Shown here: in pieces, positions 13,369 to 44,280 of the stretch | Layout of the letters: every line of letters starts with the position of its first letter | Numbering within the stretch: position 1 is the stretch's first letter | Virus record (IMG/VR): IMGVR_UViG_3300042860_002932 | Span: 1 to 53,142 of that record | DNA: 53,142 nt | Strand: one strand, 5' to 3' | Source of the DNA: a virus | Notes under the pieces: model-generated | What the model was told of the DNA's origin: nothing | Seen by the model: the letters and a program-made list of their open reading frames with translations, nothing else | Database searches by the model: none | Translations under genes and position numbers: made by a program

Positions 13369-14388
13369 TTAATTGAAAAGTGCCAGTTCCAAACCTTTAA
13401 TAGGAGTAATGTTTCTGGAAAGTGCAAGTTGTGCGGCTTTTTCGGTTGTTCCTTGATAACCAAGGTTCAAAACAGTTGAAAGCATCTGGTCTTCCGGACT
13501 ATCAAAGTCTTTCGTACCCAAAAATCCTGTCACACCGTTAAATGCGCCCCATCCTGTGCCTTTAAATTCTTTTTGGCCGGGACCACTTTCGTAGTAAGAA
13601 AGCGCAGAAGTAATGATGTTTCGCTTCCGGGTTGAAATAATCGAATCGCCTTCTGCATCCAAAATTTGACCAAGCGCAAGGGCTTCAATTTCTTCCCCGG
13701 TCAAAAATACATGACCAAAGAAATCGACTGGGTTAATTTGGATATCTGACATTTGGTTGAACGCGTCACCAAGTATGGTTACGTTCTTTTCCAAAAGGCC
13801 CATCACTTTGACAAACTCGCGAATTTTTTCATTCGCACTTTGGGTGTGACGGAATGTGTACTTTTCTTTTGCGCCGCGCAATGCAGCGGTCAGCGTGTTG
13901 TTACAAACAACCCTGATTGGTGTAAAAATAACGCTAATTGGTGAAGTTCCATCAAAACTGTTGGTGAACAAGAGGTACATATCGGTTACGTCAGTTCCTT
14001 TTACCACCACCTGTTTATCCGATTTCATTGAAACAAACGAAATAGCACCGTCTTTAAGTACGCCAGCAGTTTCAATGTGAAATGGGAACTGGTTAACAAT
14101 TGCAAGTGCGTCCGCGTTTTGAACCGGAGTGTAACGGCTACCTACCGTTCCCAAAACTTTATGAGTGTCAGTACGCCAAGTAAAGAATGAACTTTCGCTG
14201 ATGATTTCAATCTCGCCCATACGGTGAATGTTTGGCGATTTTTCAACGTGGTAATCAAGTCCGCCATATTGCATAGCGTCTTGAAGGTTGACTTGTTCGA
14301 GGATTGTACCAAACCCGTGCCAAGGTTTGATATTTTTGGAAACAAAGTCTCCGGTTTCGTTTTTCTGAAAACTAAGGTTATGTGCCAT
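13369..14388 (-). CDS. DUF932 phage/plasmid-like protein
   Basis: 339 residues, the usual length for DUF932 (TIGR03299-type) proteins. Recognisable parts are the N-terminal KPWHGFGTILE, SRYTPVQNADALAI, the central FDGTSPISVIFTPIRVVCNNTL, and GWGAFNGVTGFLGT near the C-terminus. The family is widespread in phages and plasmids. A role in DNA metabolism or recombination has been suggested, but no reaction is established. It has its own promoter at 14420. Confidence 0.9.
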   Translation of the reverse strand: MAHNLSFQKNETGDFVSKNIKPWHGFGTILEQVNLQDAMQYGGLDYHVEKSPNIHRMGEIEIISESSFFTWRTDTHKVLGTVGSRYTPVQNADALAIVNQFPFHIETAGVLKDGAISFVSMKSDKQVVVKGTDVTDMYLLFTNSFDGTSPISVIFTPIRVVCNNTLTAALRGAKEKYTFRHTQSANEKIREFVKVMGLLEKNVTILGDAFNQMSDIQINPVDFFGHVFLTGEEIEALALGQILDAEGDSIISTRKRNIITSALSYYESGPGQKEFKGTGWGAFNGVTGFLGTKDFDSPEDQMLSTVLNLGYQGTTEKAAQLALSRNITPIKGLELALFN

Positions 14389-14419
14389 TGTTAAAAAAGT
14401 TTGTTTGTTAATTACTATA

Positions 14420-14480
14420 CAAAGGTAAGGGAGTGTTTTTAAACTTCCAAATGGATTAACAAGCCATTAACACAGTGAAT
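14420..14480 (-). promoter_or_regulatory. Promoter of the DUF932 gene
   Basis: TACCTTTG is at 14420-14427 and TTTGG at 14447-14451, spaced 19 bases. Two GTTAAT boxes one helical turn apart lie directly upstream. Confidence 0.7.
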
Positions 14481-14682
14481 GTTTTATAACTTGATTAAGA
14501 TTTTCAAAAGTTCTTCCGTCAAATTTAGAATAGTTTGCAGTGCAATAACCGGATATATTTCCGGAAATTGTGACCGATGCTTCGTATTGTTTTTCATTAA
14601 CACTGAAATATACCGAACTGTTATCTTCGGTAAATTCAATATTCATTTTAGTGAACTTTCTTTTTAAATTGTCAATTTTCAT
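14467..14682 (-). CDS. Hypothetical protein, 71 aa
   Basis: Starts MKIDNLKRKFTKMNIEFTED; two residues earlier is another ATG. A small alpha/beta protein of unknown role, read from the promoter at 14707. Confidence 0.6.
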   Translation of the reverse strand: MKIDNLKRKFTKMNIEFTEDNSSVYFSVNEKQYEASVTISGNISGYCTANYSKFDGRTFENLNQVIKHSLC

Positions 14683-14706
14683 AATCAATTGTTTTTAATT
14701 ACGATA

Positions 14707-14760
14707 CAAAGATAAAGGCTTGATCCTTACGAACCAAGCCCATTAACAAACATTAACAAC
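14707..14760 (-). promoter_or_regulatory. Promoter of the 71-aa gene
   Basis: TATCTTTG is at 14707-14714 and CTTGG at 14734-14738, spaced 19 bases. Paired GTTAATG boxes lie 10 bases apart upstream. Confidence 0.7.
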
Positions 14761-14762
14761 CT

Positions 14763-14876
14763 TTAAGAATTCATATTTCGGTAATGATCCCAATCATTAT
14801 TATCAGTTGGGAATTTCAAATATTTGAATATAAAGATGATTGCGGCACAAAGGCCAATAAAGAATAGGATTTTCAT
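14763..14876 (-). CDS. Small membrane protein, 37 aa
   Basis: MKILFFIGLCAAIIFIFKYL is one membrane segment, followed by a polar tail NNDWDHYRNMNS. Its start overlaps the stop of the next gene by 4 bases (ATGA), which supports coupled translation. Confidence 0.55.
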   Translation of the reverse strand: MKILFFIGLCAAIIFIFKYLKFPTDNNDWDHYRNMNS

Positions 14877-15259
14877 ATATTTTTAGATTTAAAAAGTTTG
14901 TGACATTTATCAGGTTGAATATCTTCAATGGTCTGTCGACGACCTACGCCAATCATCCAAGTATTCAAAGTCATAACTGAATTTGGATAGATCGGATCAT
15001 GAACTTCATCATATACGATGGTATATGAAGTTGGTTCCCAATCTTTGGGAACGGATGCATAAAAAATTATACAAAGCAGACACCAATCAGAATCTTGAAC
15101 TTCGCGCCAAAAAACATCTTTAAAAGGAACTCCGATTTCTTTTGCAAATTTAGTTGCGCCTTCTTTTAGATTCCTAACAGCATCCGCGACATTTAAAGTT
15201 TGCATATAACCAGCATTATATGCGACCATCGAACTGTATGTGAACAAAGATAATGTCAT
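14873..15259 (-). CDS. Hypothetical protein, 128 aa
   Basis: A soluble protein with two nearby cysteines (DSDWCLLCIIF). Overlaps both neighbours by 4 bases (ATGA arrangement), so it is translated as part of a three-gene unit with 15256-15894. No family is recognised. Confidence 0.6.
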   Translation of the reverse strand: MTLSLFTYSSMVAYNAGYMQTLNVADAVRNLKEGATKFAKEIGVPFKDVFWREVQDSDWCLLCIIFYASVPKDWEPTSYTIVYDEVHDPIYPNSVMTLNTWMIGVGRRQTIEDIQPDKCHKLFKSKNI

Positions 15260-15894
15260 TGTTGAGTTTGATTTTTATATTGATATTGATATTCACATTC
15301 TCCCGGAAGGAAATAAGCATACGCCCTGCAAAATTCCGGATATTGCGCTTTAAATTCTTTAACGGCATCTTTGCAGTCGAACTCGTTAAAATATTGACCA
15401 TAATGTACTACCCAATAATCTTTGATCTCTCGGGTACTTCCGTCTTTATATTTTTGAGTCAATGAACCTTTTGGAAGTTTGGTACACATGGAACCATCTG
15501 GACGTGAACCCGGAGGTTGAATCAAAAGTTCCATCCTGATAGTCCAATACCCACCAGTCGTTCTACCGGGACGCTGGCCGAAGCGTTGATTTGAAATAAC
15601 GACCGTATCGCGACTCAAAACAGTCGTTTCGGCCTTACAATTATCAGCGTCCCAACTTGTTTCTGAAACGACTCTGACGCGTTTCTTGACTTCTTGGTAA
15701 CCTGAAACTGGACTATAAACAAGTTCGCCAATCGTTCCATAATTCGATTTCGCATCGCATGGGTCGGGAGTCAGTGGAGATTGCATTGAATATTGCAAAG
15801 GAAATTCAAAACGCTGAATCAACTCTTCACATTGGGCATTTAAGTCACCAAAGGTTAGTCCGATTAGACTAAGAATTAAAATCGTAATTTTCAT
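15256..15894 (-). CDS. Secreted cysteine-containing protein
   Basis: 212 residues with a signal peptide (MKITILILSLIGLTFGDLNA, cut before Q). About seven cysteines in the mature part suggest disulphides. The rest is beta-rich with basic residues. It is probably periplasmic or surface exposed. No family is recognised. Confidence 0.65.
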   Translation of the reverse strand: MKITILILSLIGLTFGDLNAQCEELIQRFEFPLQYSMQSPLTPDPCDAKSNYGTIGELVYSPVSGYQEVKKRVRVVSETSWDADNCKAETTVLSRDTVVISNQRFGQRPGRTTGGYWTIRMELLIQPPGSRPDGSMCTKLPKGSLTQKYKDGSTREIKDYWVVHYGQYFNEFDCKDAVKEFKAQYPEFCRAYAYFLPGECEYQYQYKNQTQQ

Positions 15895-16087
15895 ATTGTT
15901 GTTTTATTTGTTTTAATTGTGAAAGTAATTCAGTTCCTTCTTTAAGAAACTGATCGATCATTTTGTTTGTGTGTGGCCAAAACCAATTGCCAATTTTACT
16001 TAGTCTCTTAGATTCAAGCCAAATAAGATGTTCTTCCTGATTTTTAATCATGACATCGATTCGATCCAATAATGCCTGTTTGTTCAT
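15869..16087 (-). CDS. Coiled-coil protein, 72 aa
   Basis: Almost entirely helical with heptad-like hydrophobics (MNKQALLDRIDVMIKNQEEH, then LLSQLKQIKQQYEN). Overlaps the start of the secreted protein gene by 26 bases. Confidence 0.6.
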   Translation of the reverse strand: MNKQALLDRIDVMIKNQEEHLIWLESKRLSKIGNWFWPHTNKMIDQFLKEGTELLSQLKQIKQQYENYDFNS

Positions 16088-16236
16088 TGATCTAAAATAT
16101 TTTCAAGTAAATCTTGGATTTTGGTTAACAGTTTTTCAGCCTTTGAATTACCAACAACACCGTATTTTTTTATGATCCGATTATGACGTCGGAGCCATTG
16201 TTTCCACCATTCGGGATTCTGCTCTCGTTTAGTCAT
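16084..16236 (-). CDS. Hypothetical protein, 50 aa
   Basis: Starts MTKREQNPEWWKQWLRRHNR and is basic and helical. Its stop overlaps the start of the coiled-coil gene by 4 bases and its start overlaps the next stop, which supports it as a real gene in a coupled series. Confidence 0.55.
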   Translation of the reverse strand: MTKREQNPEWWKQWLRRHNRIIKKYGVVGNSKAEKLLTKIQDLLENILDQ

Positions 16237-16528
16237 TGATTTCAATTGTGATTGTTGCGTTTACTCGTGTAACCACTTTCCCTATAAATTCAGGGATATA
16301 GTCTTTAATAGTCTCAGTGTTCAATTTTGACCATTCGTCAATTTTTACTGGGTTATCTTTTCGATTCCATTCCATCTCGTTTTCAAGAACAAACAAAATC
16401 ATTTTGCCGTAATCACACTGAGCAATTAGAAAATATTGGCCATCTACTTTGATAATATTTTCACCATTGTAATAAGACAGTTCTTGTACTTGTGGTTGGG
16501 TATCGGTGATAATAATTTTAGTTGTCAT
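16229..16528 (-). CDS. Hypothetical protein, 99 aa
   Basis: I use the ATG ending at 16528 (MTTKIIITDTQPQVQELSYY), because a longer frame would overlap the upstream gene by about 38 bases. A beta-rich soluble protein, function unknown. Confidence 0.6.
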   Translation of the reverse strand: MTTKIIITDTQPQVQELSYYNGENIIKVDGQYFLIAQCDYGKMILFVLENEMEWNRKDNPVKIDEWSKLNTETIKDYIPEFIGKVVTRVNATITIEIND

Positions 16529-16529
16529 G

Positions 16530-16841
16530 TTAAAAGAATTTATCGTTTTGTTGTGTGTACGGTTCAATTTTAATTTTTAATCCCAAGTCTTTGTTTCTGC
16601 CTCGGAATTTTTCGCGATCGTAATCGTTATTCATCATTTCAGTATTTCGCCAATGTAAATGACCATTGTCATTATGATTCGTTTTACTTTTGGTCGTAAC
16701 TGATTTATAAAGTTTCAAATCCTCGGCAGAGAGCATTTCAAGTTGTCGACGTTTCAGTTCCAAAAGAAACTTTTCAACCTCGGGTTCAGTACCAATAAAA
16801 GTTTCATTGATACTTCCGGTAACTTTAAGACGTTTAGTCAT
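16530..16841 (-). CDS. Hypothetical protein, 103 aa
   Basis: Starts MTKRLKVTGSINETFIGTEP. A polar, asparagine-rich C-terminal half looks disordered. No family is recognised. Confidence 0.6.
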   Translation of the reverse strand: MTKRLKVTGSINETFIGTEPEVEKFLLELKRRQLEMLSAEDLKLYKSVTTKSKTNHNDNGHLHWRNTEMMNNDYDREKFRGRNKDLGLKIKIEPYTQQNDKFF

Positions 16842-17022
16842 ATTGAAAGTTAAAGGTTAATGAAACAAACACTCGTTCAAGTATTGTTTCGGGCGTTAAG
16901 GCTTTATACGCACGATCAATGGTTGCGTAAATTTTAAAATTGCCGTTTGGAAAGGTAACTTTCCACGCTTGTGTCATACCATCAGGGACGGCATCATAAT
17001 AACAAGGTGATTTCAGGTTCAT
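16834..17022 (-). CDS. Hypothetical protein, 62 aa
   Basis: Starts MNLKSPCYYDAVPDGMTQAW. Overlaps the next gene by 8 bases. The promoter at 17054 is just upstream. Confidence 0.6.
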   Translation of the reverse strand: MNLKSPCYYDAVPDGMTQAWKVTFPNGNFKIYATIDRAYKALTPETILERVFVSLTFNFQYD

Positions 17023-17042
17023 TTTTTTAAAAGTTTATTTGT

Positions 17043-17101
17043 TAATTACAGTACAAAAGTAAAACCTAAAAATGAATTAACCAAACACATTAACATTTCA
17101 T
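17043..17101 (-). repeat. Duplicated promoter block, copy 1
   Basis: About 59 bases nearly identical to 17604-17662. It contains the -7 box TACTTTTG (17054-17061), TTTGG (17081-17085) at 19-base spacing and the upstream GTTAATG. One base in the -7 box differs from copy 2, which has TACCTTTG. Confidence 0.7.
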
Positions 17102-17102
17102 T

Positions 17103-17309
17103 TTATCTTTTTATTTTTTGACCGTTAATAAACATAAATTTCTTACTATCAAACGCAAATGGCTCGATCATAAATTCTTTCAAATGTCCCATATGTTTGG
17201 CCTCTATAATTGCGGCATCGGCATCAAATGCATAATAATGTCCCAGTTCAAAATAAGAAGAACCGGGAACATTCAATTTAACGCAAACCGTAAATCGTTT
17301 CGATTTCAT
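17103..17309 (-). CDS. Hypothetical protein, 68 aa
   Basis: Starts MKSKRFTVCVKLNVPGSSYF. A small alpha/beta protein. It shares the transcript with the 87-aa gene directly upstream. Confidence 0.6.
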   Translation of the reverse strand: MKSKRFTVCVKLNVPGSSYFELGHYYAFDADAAIIEAKHMGHLKEFMIEPFAFDSKKFMFINGQKIKR

Positions 17310-17573
17310 TTAGGCAGGATAATGAGTTTTAAAATTTCCCAACATAGGAACGTTTGACCAGTCCCTATAATACAAAGGACATTCATCCTTTGAAAGAATG
17401 GTTGTGTTTTCCAACCCAATCTCGCAAGGCTTTAATGCAACGGCCTTTGTAACATTACGAAGGCTTTTAGTTGAACCATCTGCAAAGGTTGCAGTGAATA
17501 CGGTGCTTGCGCGTTTAGCGTCAAGCATTTCAATAGAGCGAGAAATCAAAACTGGAACTAACATAAACTTCAA
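17310..17573 (-). CDS. Hypothetical protein, 87 aa
   Basis: Starts MKFMLVPVLISRSIEMLDAK. The stop directly abuts the next gene. Its promoter is at 17615. Function unknown. Confidence 0.6.
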   Translation of the reverse strand: MKFMLVPVLISRSIEMLDAKRASTVFTATFADGSTKSLRNVTKAVALKPCEIGLENTTILSKDECPLYYRDWSNVPMLGNFKTHYPA

Positions 17574-17603
17574 AGGTTAAGCCCTAACCGGCGGGCCGCC
17601 GTT

Positions 17604-17662
17604 TAATTACAGTACAAAGGTAAAACCTAAAAATGAATTAACCAAACACATTAACATTTCAT
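17604..17662 (-). repeat. Duplicated promoter block, copy 2
   Basis: TACCTTTG is at 17615-17622 and TTTGG at 17642-17646, spaced 19 bases, with tandem GTTAATG boxes. It drives the 17310 and 17103 genes. Compare copy 1 at 17043. Confidence 0.7.
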
Positions 17663-17920
17663 TAACGAAAATTGGTAGTGATCGTTATCAAACCGAAATA
17701 TTTCGCCAGAATCGTATTTAGGGCTAATTGGAAATGCGTGTTCTTCATAACCTTCAAGACAGAAATAATCATCAGCATATTCATCTTTCATAATGCGCTC
17801 AGATTCGAAAATCTCGGGTTCCTGACAATCAGAATGTAAGTTCCAATATTTAAGGATATATTTTCCTTTAATATCGTTTTCTACTATATTGAATAACTCG
17901 TCGACTGTAATGTATTTCAT
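17651..17920 (-). CDS. Hypothetical protein, 89 aa
   Basis: An acidic soluble protein starting MKYITVDELFNIVENDIKGK. Its 3' end overlaps the GTTAATG boxes of the promoter block at 17604. Confidence 0.6.
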   Translation of the reverse strand: MKYITVDELFNIVENDIKGKYILKYWNLHSDCQEPEIFESERIMKDEYADDYFCLEGYEEHAFPISPKYDSGEIFRFDNDHYQFSLMKC

Positions 17921-38267: not shown

Positions 38268-39286
38268 AGTGACTTCGATTTTACCTGTTTAAACAATGTT
38301 TCAAGATTATGTTTCGATTTTTCTTCTAATTCAACCCACCAGTTTCCTTTTTTTTCAGCATTACAAATTCCAGTTGGATTATCTTCATTTAAGATAAACT
38401 TTCGTTTTTGTGGGTGTCTACGGTTATGAACCCGTAAAATGTTTTTGAAATTGAACTGAACAAAGTCATCTCCCATAATCCGTTTGGCGATTCTTAAAAT
38501 TGATTCATCTTCGCCGTGATGGATTAATGAATGGGGCAAAGTTACTCCCGATTTTAAAAGTTCACTTGTAAAAACCAAACAACTTCCATCGGCCTTGGGT
38601 TCAGTCAATGCTTGGACTTGAATTTTATCGGGACTGATATTATTTATTTCATTCATTTGTTCTAAGGACATATAAGATTTTTCAGAGGCAGGATTGTTAA
38701 AAATCCAATTTTCATCATCTTGATATGGAATTGATTCAAATAAAGGATGCGTTATCACGTCCCAACTTTTGTCCCAATTCTTTCTTCCGGCAAAGTTAGC
38801 AACATATTTGGGATATTGGCCGGAAACTTGTTCATGTAAAGTTTCCAAAGCAAATAACGTTTGTTTGGGCCATAGAGAATCCACCTCGTTCCAACAAATA
38901 AAGTCATGTGTATTGGTATATTTCCAACATATATCTCTGCGAGAGTGTGCAATATTATAAAAAGGAACATCATCAAAAATATATGAAATCTTCACATCCA
39001 ATTCAGATGGTAGTTTACCCCATATCTTTCCAAATTGTTCTTTAAATAAAATAAAACCATAGTATTCGTTTATAAATACTCTGCCATTTCCATGCTGTTC
39101 ATAAAATTTATACCAATCTATTTTTTCAAATTTTTGCTGAAAATTAAAACATAAATCTATTGTAATATTTTGTTTATTAGTTATTGGTTCAGTCATCTGA
39201 ATCAGAGATTGAATATGTTCATTGAACATTCCAATTTCATAAAATTGAATTAACGACGAAAATACATATTTATTATTTAATTGCAT
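38264..39286 (-). CDS. GT-A glycosyltransferase-like protein
   Basis: 340 residues. ICWNEVDSLWPKQTLFALET carries a DxD-like acidic motif (about residue 133). The C-terminal LPHSLIHHGEDESILRIAKR fits the acceptor and metal-binding end of GT-A enzymes. The first 40 residues (starting MQLNNKYVFSSLIQFYEIGM) are homologous to an orphan 39-residue fragment at 40255-40374. The start overlaps the stop of the LAGLIDADG gene by 14 bases. Confidence 0.65.
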   Translation of the reverse strand: MQLNNKYVFSSLIQFYEIGMFNEHIQSLIQMTEPITNKQNITIDLCFNFQQKFEKIDWYKFYEQHGNGRVFINEYYGFILFKEQFGKIWGKLPSELDVKISYIFDDVPFYNIAHSRRDICWKYTNTHDFICWNEVDSLWPKQTLFALETLHEQVSGQYPKYVANFAGRKNWDKSWDVITHPLFESIPYQDDENWIFNNPASEKSYMSLEQMNEINNISPDKIQVQALTEPKADGSCLVFTSELLKSGVTLPHSLIHHGEDESILRIAKRIMGDDFVQFNFKNILRVHNRRHPQKRKFILNEDNPTGICNAEKKGNWWVELEEKSKHNLETLFKQVKSKSL

Positions 39287-40070
39287 ATTTTTTTATTATT
39301 CTATATGTATGACTTAAATCATAATTTAACAACTGGGATATTTCTTTTGGTGTTTTTCCGCTATTGTATAATTCTAAACATTGAATTTTTATATTTTGAG
39401 ATTTTTCATGAGAATTGTTATGATTAATATCAATTCGATCCCATTTTCGTTCGAGTAATGGGAGTTTCAGTGCAGTTAAATTAGTCTTAAGAGTTTTTAA
39501 TTCTGAATTAACACCCAATCGCAAAAAACTCATATCTCCCCATATATGTATGGTACTTCTATTTGAAATATATTTTTTAAAAAATTCAAGAATATGTACC
39601 CAATTTTTATGTATTGCTATTGATAAAAATACTCTTTTATCGGACTTAGGTGTCTTGACAATTGATCCGTCCCCGTCTATATAACCTGCAATAAGTGATA
39701 ATATTTGGTTCTTATTAAAATTGCTCTCATAGTCATTTATATCGGGCGGATTATACGTTTTATTCGGTTTAATGTGAAATTTATTTACTATTTGTTTAAC
39801 TACAATCTTGTCGCAAAAACGAATGCGACAACTGGTATTATTACTTGTCTTGGTTTTAACTTCTCTATGATCGATTTCATTTTTAAAATTTACAAATTTT
39901 TTAAATTTAAACAAATGATCATAATCTTTATTATTTATTTCTAATGACATTTGTTGGGAATTTTGCGAAAACCAACCATCCGCTAACAGAAATCCGACCC
40001 AATAAAATGATTCGTTATCGTTTTCCAATAGTTTAGTCAAATCATAATTTGTTTCTTTTTCTTGTTTCAT
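39273..40070 (-). CDS. LAGLIDADG homing endonuclease
   Basis: 265 residues with two LAGLIDADG motifs: VGFLLADGW (about 25-33) and IAGYIDGDGS (about 127-136), each with the catalytic acidic residue. A C-terminal helix-turn-helix (about 225-265: LYNSGKTPKEISQLLNYDLS) resembles a DNA-binding module. It cuts long target sites and spreads by repair. It is free-standing, preceded by a ribbon-helix-helix-like gene with which it overlaps by 29 bases, and has no surrounding intron core that I can see. Confidence 0.88.
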   Translation of the reverse strand: MKQEKETNYDLTKLLENDNESFYWVGFLLADGWFSQNSQQMSLEINNKDYDHLFKFKKFVNFKNEIDHREVKTKTSNNTSCRIRFCDKIVVKQIVNKFHIKPNKTYNPPDINDYESNFNKNQILSLIAGYIDGDGSIVKTPKSDKRVFLSIAIHKNWVHILEFFKKYISNRSTIHIWGDMSFLRLGVNSELKTLKTNLTALKLPLLERKWDRIDINHNNSHEKSQNIKIQCLELYNSGKTPKEISQLLNYDLSHTYRIIKKYAIK

Positions 40071-40221
40071 TTTTTTGAATTTCCTTTATAGTTTTTATAA
40101 GAAGATTGCTAACAAATTGATTAACTTTTAGAGAATTCTGTTTACAATATTCTTTAACAATCGAATGACATTCAACTGACACTCTAAAACTTTTCAATTC
40201 ATCGATTTCTTCTTGTTTCAT
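40042..40221 (-). CDS. Ribbon-helix-helix-like small protein, cassette 1
   Basis: 59 residues starting MKQEEIDELKSFRVSVECHS. A short strand (KSFRVSV) is followed by two helices (SIVKEYCKQN and NQFVSNLLIKTIKE), the layout of MetJ/Arc-type DNA-binding proteins. Its end overlaps the LAGLIDADG start by 29 bases. A palindromic leader overlaps its start codon, suggesting that it controls its own cassette. Compare 52744-52911. Confidence 0.6.
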   Translation of the reverse strand: MKQEEIDELKSFRVSVECHSIVKEYCKQNSLKVNQFVSNLLIKTIKEIQKNETRKRNKL

Positions 40222-40245
40222 ATACTATAAGTATCCAAAATTTTA
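40219..40245 (-). promoter_or_regulatory. Palindromic leader / possible operator, cassette 1
   Basis: On the minus strand GGATACTTATAGTAT precedes the ATG. ATACT and AGTAT form a perfect inverted repeat. The block, including GTAAAATTT further upstream, recurs at 52909-52935. It is probably the operator of the ribbon-helix-helix protein. Confidence 0.5.
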
Positions 40246-40254
40246 CAAAAAAAG

Positions 40255-40374
40255 TTACAAATTATTTTCAATTCCTTCCAACATTTGTTGGCAAGAACGT
40301 AAATGCTTATCCAACATTTCAATTTCGTAAAACTGAACTTGGGTTCCGATGAGGTAAGTGTTTTTTAATTTCAT
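40255..40374 (-). pseudogene. Truncated 5' fragment of a glycosyltransferase-type gene
   Basis: A 39-residue frame starting MKLKNTYLIGTQVQFYEIEM, homologous to the first 40 residues of the complete gene at 38264-39286 (both share QFYEI followed by a matching helix). It ends at a stop just upstream of the endonuclease cassette leader. It is either the original 5' end of the gene, cut off by cassette insertion, or what remains of a tandem paralogue. Confidence 0.7.
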
Positions 40375-43999: not shown

Positions 44000-44227
44000 C
44001 TAAAACTCTCCCTTCCAAATTTTAATAATTAATGCAGTTATTCCTAAAAATAATGCAGTAGCAAAAAGAATACCCGCAACCATCATGTTAATAACCAGAT
44101 AATTTTCAAGAAATGTAACTGTTTCAGGTTGAAAATTTTCAGGATAATGAATTCTACCAAAATAAACTACGGCCAAGTTCAACAAAAATATAACTACCAA
44201 AAATATAATTAACCATTTTCCTTTCAT
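44000..44227 (-). CDS. Two-segment membrane protein, 75 aa
   Basis: MKGKWLIIFLVVIFLLNLAV is the first segment and MMVAGILFATALFLGITALI the second. The promoter at 44229 lies directly upstream, leaving almost no leader. Confidence 0.6.
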   Translation of the reverse strand: MKGKWLIIFLVVIFLLNLAVVYFGRIHYPENFQPETVTFLENYLVINMMVAGILFATALFLGITALIIKIWKGEF

Positions 44228-44228
44228 A

Positions 44229-44280
44229 CAAATATAAGTATTTTCTTAGAACTTTCAAATATTTAGTTTGTTAATTTAAA
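44229..44280 (-). promoter_or_regulatory. Promoter of the 75-aa membrane protein
   Basis: TATATTTG is at 44229-44236 and TTTG at 44256-44259, spaced 19 bases, with GTTAAC and TTAAC boxes upstream. It is the only clear promoter of this type in the right half of the window. Confidence 0.6.

Follow-up and report, generated by a model that had tools for sequence, protein, structure and literature searches.

Two homing endonuclease genes in one phage genome are each preceded by a small gene whose end they overlap, which raises the question of whether the small gene and the DNA before it form a control unit carried with the endonuclease. The first-pass annotation of this locus proposed that they do: a ribbon–helix–helix (RHH)-like protein and its operator would form a transferable module limiting endonuclease expression, with the endonuclease part exchangeable. 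How harm from such endonucleases is avoided is known mainly from T4, in which autorepression, RNA hairpins, and ORF overlaps serve this end. The reading that we favor, with slightly more doubt than belief, is that the locus represents two free-standing homing cassettes, each with a dedicated RHH autoregulator that exerts control in the manner of the C proteins of restriction systems.

Two Cassettes in One Phage Genome

The window, by which we mean the whole 53,142-nt stretch analyzed here, is part of a phage whose main genes all lie on the minus strand, as do all genes and leaders described below for the window; the sequence can be extended to about 104 kb via contigs of near-identical phages. 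The repeat TTG-N18-23-TAnnTTTG, which we take to be the Bacteroidota promoter form, occurs 27 times on the gene strand and 8 times on the other strand (mean in shuffles, 7.1), so the host of the phage is probably a member of the Bacteroidota. Host-type promoter sequences are repeated in positions 14386–17663, including near-identical 61-nt copies at 17042–17102 and 17603–17663.

Cassette 1 (39273–40259) is composed of a leader, a 59-codon small gene, and an endonuclease gene, and cassette 2 (52056–52935) has the same composition with a small gene of 55 codons. The four ORFs had been placed correctly, in both coordinates and strand, in the first-pass annotation: the small genes encode P0001 (59 aa; 40042–40221) and P0002 (55 aa; 52744–52911), and the endonuclease genes encode P0003 (265 aa; 39273–40070) and P0004 (238 aa; 52056–52772). 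P0003 matches PF14528 (E 8.2e-7, above the cut-off) and phrog_4645 (E 2.9e-23) and has a C-terminal helix–turn–helix (HTH) region matching HTH_23 below the cut-off (E 1.5e-4). It has the two motifs with acidic residues expected of a LAGLIDADG homing endonuclease, ADG (D31) and GxxDGDG (D132–G135), both conserved in all four sequences of alignment A5, which supports its assignment as a putative member of this class. P0004 matches phrog_314 (E 1e-42) and PF07460 (NUMOD3; E 5.8e-10, above the cut-off), with PF01541 below the cut-off, and has relatives in 895 INPHARED records by tblastn. Its core residues Y28, G30, H32, E78, and others are invariant in the seven aligned sequences and are joined to a predicted DNA-binding C-terminus, as in GIY-YIG endonucleases of the Seg-like type. 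On these family assignments P0003 and P0004 belong to unrelated endonuclease families, as had been claimed.

We found three endonucleases in the phage, LAGLIDADG, GIY-YIG, and HNH, and a gene of the P0001/P0002 family at two of the three; the HNH endonuclease, which lies outside the window, has no such gene. The HNH_3 ORF (L042:12120–12821, minus strand; about 83.8 kb in window coordinates) lies in a different frame within a 710-codon DNA-methylase-like ORF (L042:11282–13414, minus strand). The methylase-like frame is open throughout the HNH_3 ORF, which was the case in none of 5000 synonymous shuffles of that ORF (mean 7.7 stops), and a short VFQK repeat is present at its ends; possibly the HNH_3 ORF is a homing insertion within which both frames are coding.

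The Small Proteins

P0001 and P0002 share 35% identity over 48 aa (E 8e-10), and the homology asserted for the two small genes is therefore borne out. Their assignment to the RHH fold is likely though not proven. In a family-model search, no RHH family scored above its curated cut-off for these small proteins; sub-threshold phrog matches labeled Arc-like repressor were obtained for P0001 and P0002 (phrog_582, E 0.013 each) and for P0007, a third family member described below (E 0.081). Of the six PDB matches to profile A6, the first is 2k1o (E 0.054), labeled "Putative" and presumably an RHH protein, and omega (2bnw) is found at E 1.1. The AlphaFold2 model of P0001 (mean pLDDT 79.8) has helices at residues 16–28 and 33–57, and its nearest PDB folds by Foldseek are Arc, ParG, CopASO, KacA, and CopG, with E values of at least 1.2; the top 20 are mostly RHH proteins, all weak (none at E ≤ 0.001). 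The model of P0002 is poorer (mean pLDDT 71.7) and has no RHH fold match, and neither protein shows a formed RHH strand when modeled as a monomer. The description of the small proteins as RHH-like draws on the model of P0001 and, for P0002, on homology; the P0002 model does not resemble the fold. Judging by Arc-type proteins, the strand residues predicted to touch DNA are R/S in P0001 and P0007 and Q/D in P0002.

Weak phrog matches labeled HicB-like antitoxin (P0007, phrog_9151, E 0.002; P0001, E 0.073) bring to mind a toxin–antitoxin-like pair, in which an RHH antitoxin would bind and inhibit the nuclease and repress the pair, and RHH antitoxin genes do precede and often overlap toxin genes. 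We consider this the least probable of the readings discussed here: the partners belong to ordinary site-specific endonuclease families, for which PADLOC returned homing-endonuclease models only, a single RHH family would need to inhibit two unrelated nuclease folds, and the C-terminal tails of the RHH-like proteins are short.

A Third Cassette

A further family member beside an endonuclease had been predicted, and one was found. Scanning the best 80 IMG/VR loci of the LAGLIDADG alignment identified L165, a 5-kb contig of a different phage, in which the gene for P0007 (E 3.4e-20 against a two-sequence profile of P0001 and P0002) lies directly before a LAGLIDADG gene whose product is itself 39% identical to P0003. 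P0007 shares 46–54% identity with P0001 (54% over 50 aa) and 41% over 49 aa with P0002. The L165 leader carries ATACTTATnGTAT before the ATG, as in cassette 1. Behind the L165 LAGLIDADG gene is a gene for P0008, a homolog (45% over 281 aa) of P0006, the product of the gene downstream of cassette 1. Among those L165 ORFs that were matched against the window phage and its extended sequence, the RHH protein, the LAGLIDADG protein, and P0008 gave strong matches, and one further ORF matched weakly (23%, E 4e-4). From these comparisons L165 is an independent third RHH–endonuclease cassette. The L165 LAGLIDADG protein has a cysteine-rich N-terminal region (CPNPENNPRC...CSSC; L165:1827–2000) that is absent in P0003, and it is without the C-terminal HTH region of P0003.

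The Leader

The leader of cassette 1 (40222–40259) contains the conserved block GTAAAATTTTGGATACTTATAG at 40225–40246, and that of cassette 2 (52912–52935) contains GTAAAATTTAGGATACTTATAG at 52914–52935. The common leader block reported in the first-pass annotation is present: GTAAAATTTnGGATACTTATAG occurs exactly before both small genes and nowhere else in the window, and the 22-nt blocks are identical at 21 of 22 positions, whereas the RHH codons of the two cassettes are identical at 89/162 positions (55%; 25/54 at third positions). The same is true between cassette 1 and L165, with 31 of 38 leader positions identical compared with 102/177 in the RHH codons (25/59 at third positions). By these counts the leader is conserved above the RHH coding DNA, a pattern that a regulatory site would be expected to show. 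When upstream regions in the window were compared pairwise (6,105 pairs), the cassette pair was tied third; the two pairs above it and the one tied with it join regions that contain the host-type promoter repeat.

The inverted repeat described over the start codon is more equivocal. ATAC and GTAT are present at both cassettes, but with ATAC-N5-GTAT just before the ATG at 40221 and ATAC-N6-GTAT running into the ATG at 52911, so that spacing and position relative to the ATG differ and the repeat is only suggestive. In T4 segB and mobE an RNA hairpin hides the start. We reject such a hairpin as the main control here because neither leader folds better than shuffled sequences do (z 0.21 and 1.18).

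We also reject the leader as a general promoter of the phage, since the block is absent before other phage genes: leader-like sites are not enriched in the window (38 found and 37 expected with up to three mismatches), and ATACTTAT precedes an ORF start three times in the window, two of these being the cassettes, and not at all in the 50.6-kb extension. The third ATACTTAT site (44228–44258, minus strand; AAATACTTATATTTGTATG) lies before an ORF at 44000–44227 and overlaps a host-type promoter match. A leader search of phage sequences had been proposed in the first-pass annotation. In IMG/VR, GTAAAATTTnGGATACTTATAG was found in five stretches on three contigs, all copies of this phage. The looser pattern GGATACTTATAGN{1,6}ATGAAA was found in 14 stretches; none of the nine new ones has an RHH gene, and they appear chance-like.

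The leader could instead be the cassette's own promoter and translation start region, recognized by phage or host machinery, rather than an operator, with the RHH protein acting otherwise, for example by helping the endonuclease to bind its target or by regulating another gene. Neither cassette has a host-type TTG-N18-23-TAnnTTTG site, compared with 27 on the gene strand, and another promoter would hence be needed. The pattern of block similarity also favors this explanation. Cassettes 1 and 2, which share one genome, have the most similar blocks, with five differences between cassette 1 and L165, although the proteins of cassette 1 and L165 are closer; similarity within one genome is expected if common phage machinery reads the block, and the dissimilar predicted contact residues of P0001 and P0002 fit as well. 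Upstream of the block the relationship is reversed, with cassette 1 and L165 alike and cassettes 1 and 2 unlike. Block similarity that follows the genome, against the RHH tree, could reflect common machinery, cross-recognition, or a short conversion tract. On the other side, the block is absent before other genes of the phage and so is no general promoter class, and small RHH proteins encoded right behind a conserved site are usually autoregulators; we regard this explanation as unlikely, though not negligible.

Gene Overlap and the Endonuclease Start

The overlap between the small gene and the endonuclease gene is exactly 29 nt in both window cassettes (40042–40070 and 52744–52772), with an identical frame relation, as had been noted from the sequence. 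In a tiling of ATG-started ORFs on the gene strand, it is unique to the cassettes, which are the two cases among 110 neighboring pairs. The value holds only if translation truly begins at the ATG, given that both endonuclease frames contain an in-frame TTG 1 or 4 nt past the RHH stop. The N-terminus of P0004 is about 11 residues longer than those of five of six aligned relatives, and the extra residues correspond to the RHH-gene overlap; four relatives begin opposite residue 12, one begins later, and the sixth has two of the extra residues. GIY-YIG relatives thus begin near the TTG that follows the RHH stop, and this TTG could be an alternative endonuclease start in both cassettes. Counted from the ATG, the overlap in L165 is 44 nt in the frame relation seen in the window, so that across the three cassettes the overlap (29, 29, and 44 nt) is not fixed.

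Distribution of the Pairing

All three distinct members of the RHH family that we found adjoin an endonuclease gene, and the pairing is rare, with a family member at one (L165) of 187 relative endonuclease loci examined. These loci comprise 109 GIY-YIG and 78 LAGLIDADG loci (80 after removal of two that are copies of this phage), some of them near-duplicates, with both IMG/VR lists composed of the best 80 matches each. Among the GIY-YIG matches listed, a start was placed at 98 of 109 loci, 61 of these 98 had an upstream ORF of 35–130 aa, and none of the ORFs belonged to the RHH family; an upstream ORF of this size was present at 50 of the 78 LAGLIDADG loci (best 80 less two), one of which, in L165, encodes a member. 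A six-frame scan of the 187 loci among the matches listed returned L165 as the sole family match. The scans target the P0001/P0002 family, and a different RHH family could escape them because Pfam does not recognize these proteins.

Searches of wider scope gave a similar picture. INPHARED contained no RHH relatives in tblastn searches with P0001, P0002, and P0007 at E ≤ 1, and no family member was confirmed in genome_contigs. In a set of 395 Bacteroidota genomes, weak matches, mostly inside longer frames or fragments, were obtained in 2 with profile A1 and in 11 with profile A6, and the three RHH matches in 50 whole phage records were that of L165 itself and two weak ones. We saw no RHH-like gene upstream of endonucleases in six annotated T4-type or other phages and three Lak phages, and we found no description of a homing endonuclease paired with an RHH regulator in the open-access literature.

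Probable Insertion and Descent of the Cassettes

Downstream of cassette 1 is the gene for P0006 (38264–39286; 340 aa, no family), whose start overlaps the end of the LAGLIDADG gene by 14 nt. Upstream, a 39-codon ORF (40255–40374) encodes P0005, a copy of the N-terminus of this gene product. P0005 is 46% identical over 37 aa to the P0006 N-terminus (E 2e-8 within the window; DNA 66/111) and, again over 37 aa, shares 65% identity with the start of the L165 homolog (DNA 83/111), which is more than the 49% shared by the N-termini of P0006 and the L165 homolog. The LAGLIDADG cassette is thus bracketed by a copy of the target start upstream and a full gene downstream, a duplication that suggests insertion, with the P0006 gene as the probable homing target of cassette 1. 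Because the RHH gene and leader lie between the two copies, they would be part of the inserted unit, and we infer that the cassette is mobile as a unit.

The insertion itself is putative. No cassette-free relative was found: P0006 matches in IMG/VR were copies of the same phage only, and INPHARED gave none. The near-identical contig G003 was considered as an empty site and rejected, the LAGLIDADG gene being missing only because the record ends earlier. The N-terminal part of P0006 is no more diverged than the rest (18/37 compared with 21/59 to 33/61), which does not support a hybrid gene. At cassette 2, no duplicated flank was found.

Between the two phages, the LAGLIDADG-linked RHH proteins resemble one another more than they resemble the RHH protein linked to GIY-YIG (35–41%). 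Because the RHH tree follows the endonuclease type, either the endonuclease or the regulator must have been exchanged at least once long ago, and by these comparisons a single exchange suffices, which argues against frequent or recent swapping. The claim that the endonuclease is exchangeable accordingly stands insofar as two unrelated families are found behind related small genes and is weakened where it implied free exchange.

Common descent might also account for the pairing as a whole, the RHH gene being a hitchhiker from one ancestral cassette that has no effect on the endonuclease. Only three distinct cases are available, and cassette 1 and L165, which share their downstream gene, may represent one insertion inherited vertically; identity between them is 46–54% for the RHH proteins, 39% for the LAGLIDADG proteins, and 45% for the downstream proteins. 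A passive gene is, however, not expected to retain its frame, leader, and overlap beside two unrelated endonucleases at approximately 35–46% protein identity, nor is noncoding leader DNA expected to be better conserved than coding DNA. We judge this explanation improbable.

A Model for Cassette Regulation

In the autoregulator model that we favor, each cassette consists of a leader and two overlapping genes, the first for an RHH DNA-binding protein and the second for the endonuclease. Most likely, the RHH protein would bind the conserved leader ahead of its own start codon and, once bound, repress transcription of both genes; with some RHH protein in the cell, endonuclease synthesis would then stay low. 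Endonuclease translation may be reduced further by having its start within the final part of the RHH gene. Our main doubt about autoregulation is that the predicted DNA-contact residues of P0001 and P0002 differ while the leaders agree; a single operator for both proteins is hence not assured.

A broader version of this model posits a portable controller, in which a single RHH family, together with a fixed operator-leader, would have been joined to two or more unrelated endonuclease families, each time with the start of the endonuclease gene set within the last part of the RHH gene. We hold this version to be doubtful, although it has some plausibility. Since the leaders of the two cassettes in this phage are nearly identical, each RHH protein may also act on the other cassette, and if so, a resident cassette would damp an incoming one. 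Should the autoregulator model be correct, the RHH gene and leader would provide a sequence handle for finding and testing such cassettes.

Comparison with Known Systems

The proposed control resembles that of autorepressed T4 endonucleases such as I-TevI, whose expression is limited at a site before the gene according to the relevant passages of PMC2988022. The repressor of I-TevI is the endonuclease itself, whereas in the phage cassettes it would be the product of a separate small gene. Overlaps of T4 endonuclease genes with the upstream ORF are given in section 13 of the same paper as 20 (segC), 11 (segF), 23 (mobA), and 24 bp (mobC), and the proposal made there is that an endonuclease gene beginning within the last part of another ORF is translated less, as we suggest for the cassettes; that section does not present the T4 upstream ORFs as a family of regulators that travel with the endonuclease (PMC2988022).

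With regard to insertion, cassette 1 is similar to the mobile ORFs of fungal mitochondria, in which part of the target gene is present on both sides of an endonuclease unit, the duplicated end being reported for Allomyces atp6 and Glomus atp6, atp9, cox2, and nad3 in the passages concerned of PMC3630166. The fungal ORFs bring with them a replacement segment for the target gene and duplicate a C-terminal part; the putative insertion of cassette 1, in a phage, duplicates an N-terminal part.

Omega and PaaR are RHH repressors of toxin–antitoxin units, and with Arc/CopG they provide a precedent for a small RHH repressor of its own unit, the role proposed here for the phage proteins (PMC3874152, in the portion devoted to these regulators). 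The phage RHH-like proteins have no homology above the cut-off to any named family.

C proteins are helix–turn–helix proteins. They also activate, and they serve restriction enzymes accompanied by a methylase, in contrast to the RHH-like proteins of the phage cassettes, which accompany homing endonucleases and whose DNA binding is predicted; the model of P0001 is RHH-like rather than HTH, and there is no methylase in the cassettes. The arrangement is nonetheless similar to that described for PvuII, BamHI, and other systems in the sections of PMC2997769 on controllers, in which a small DNA-binding protein gene lies upstream of the nuclease gene and overlaps it, a conserved DNA site precedes the small gene, and related controllers are found beside different nucleases. 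In PvuII, translational coupling across the overlap of the controller and endonuclease genes was tested and not found (PMC2997769, same sections), and the overlap in the phage cassettes should therefore not be over-read. By analogy, we posit that the phage cassettes may work like C-protein systems without being members of them; if so, a dedicated regulator shared by unrelated homing endonucleases would be a further way of avoiding harm, distinct from those known in T4 and a counterpart to the controllers used in restriction–modification.
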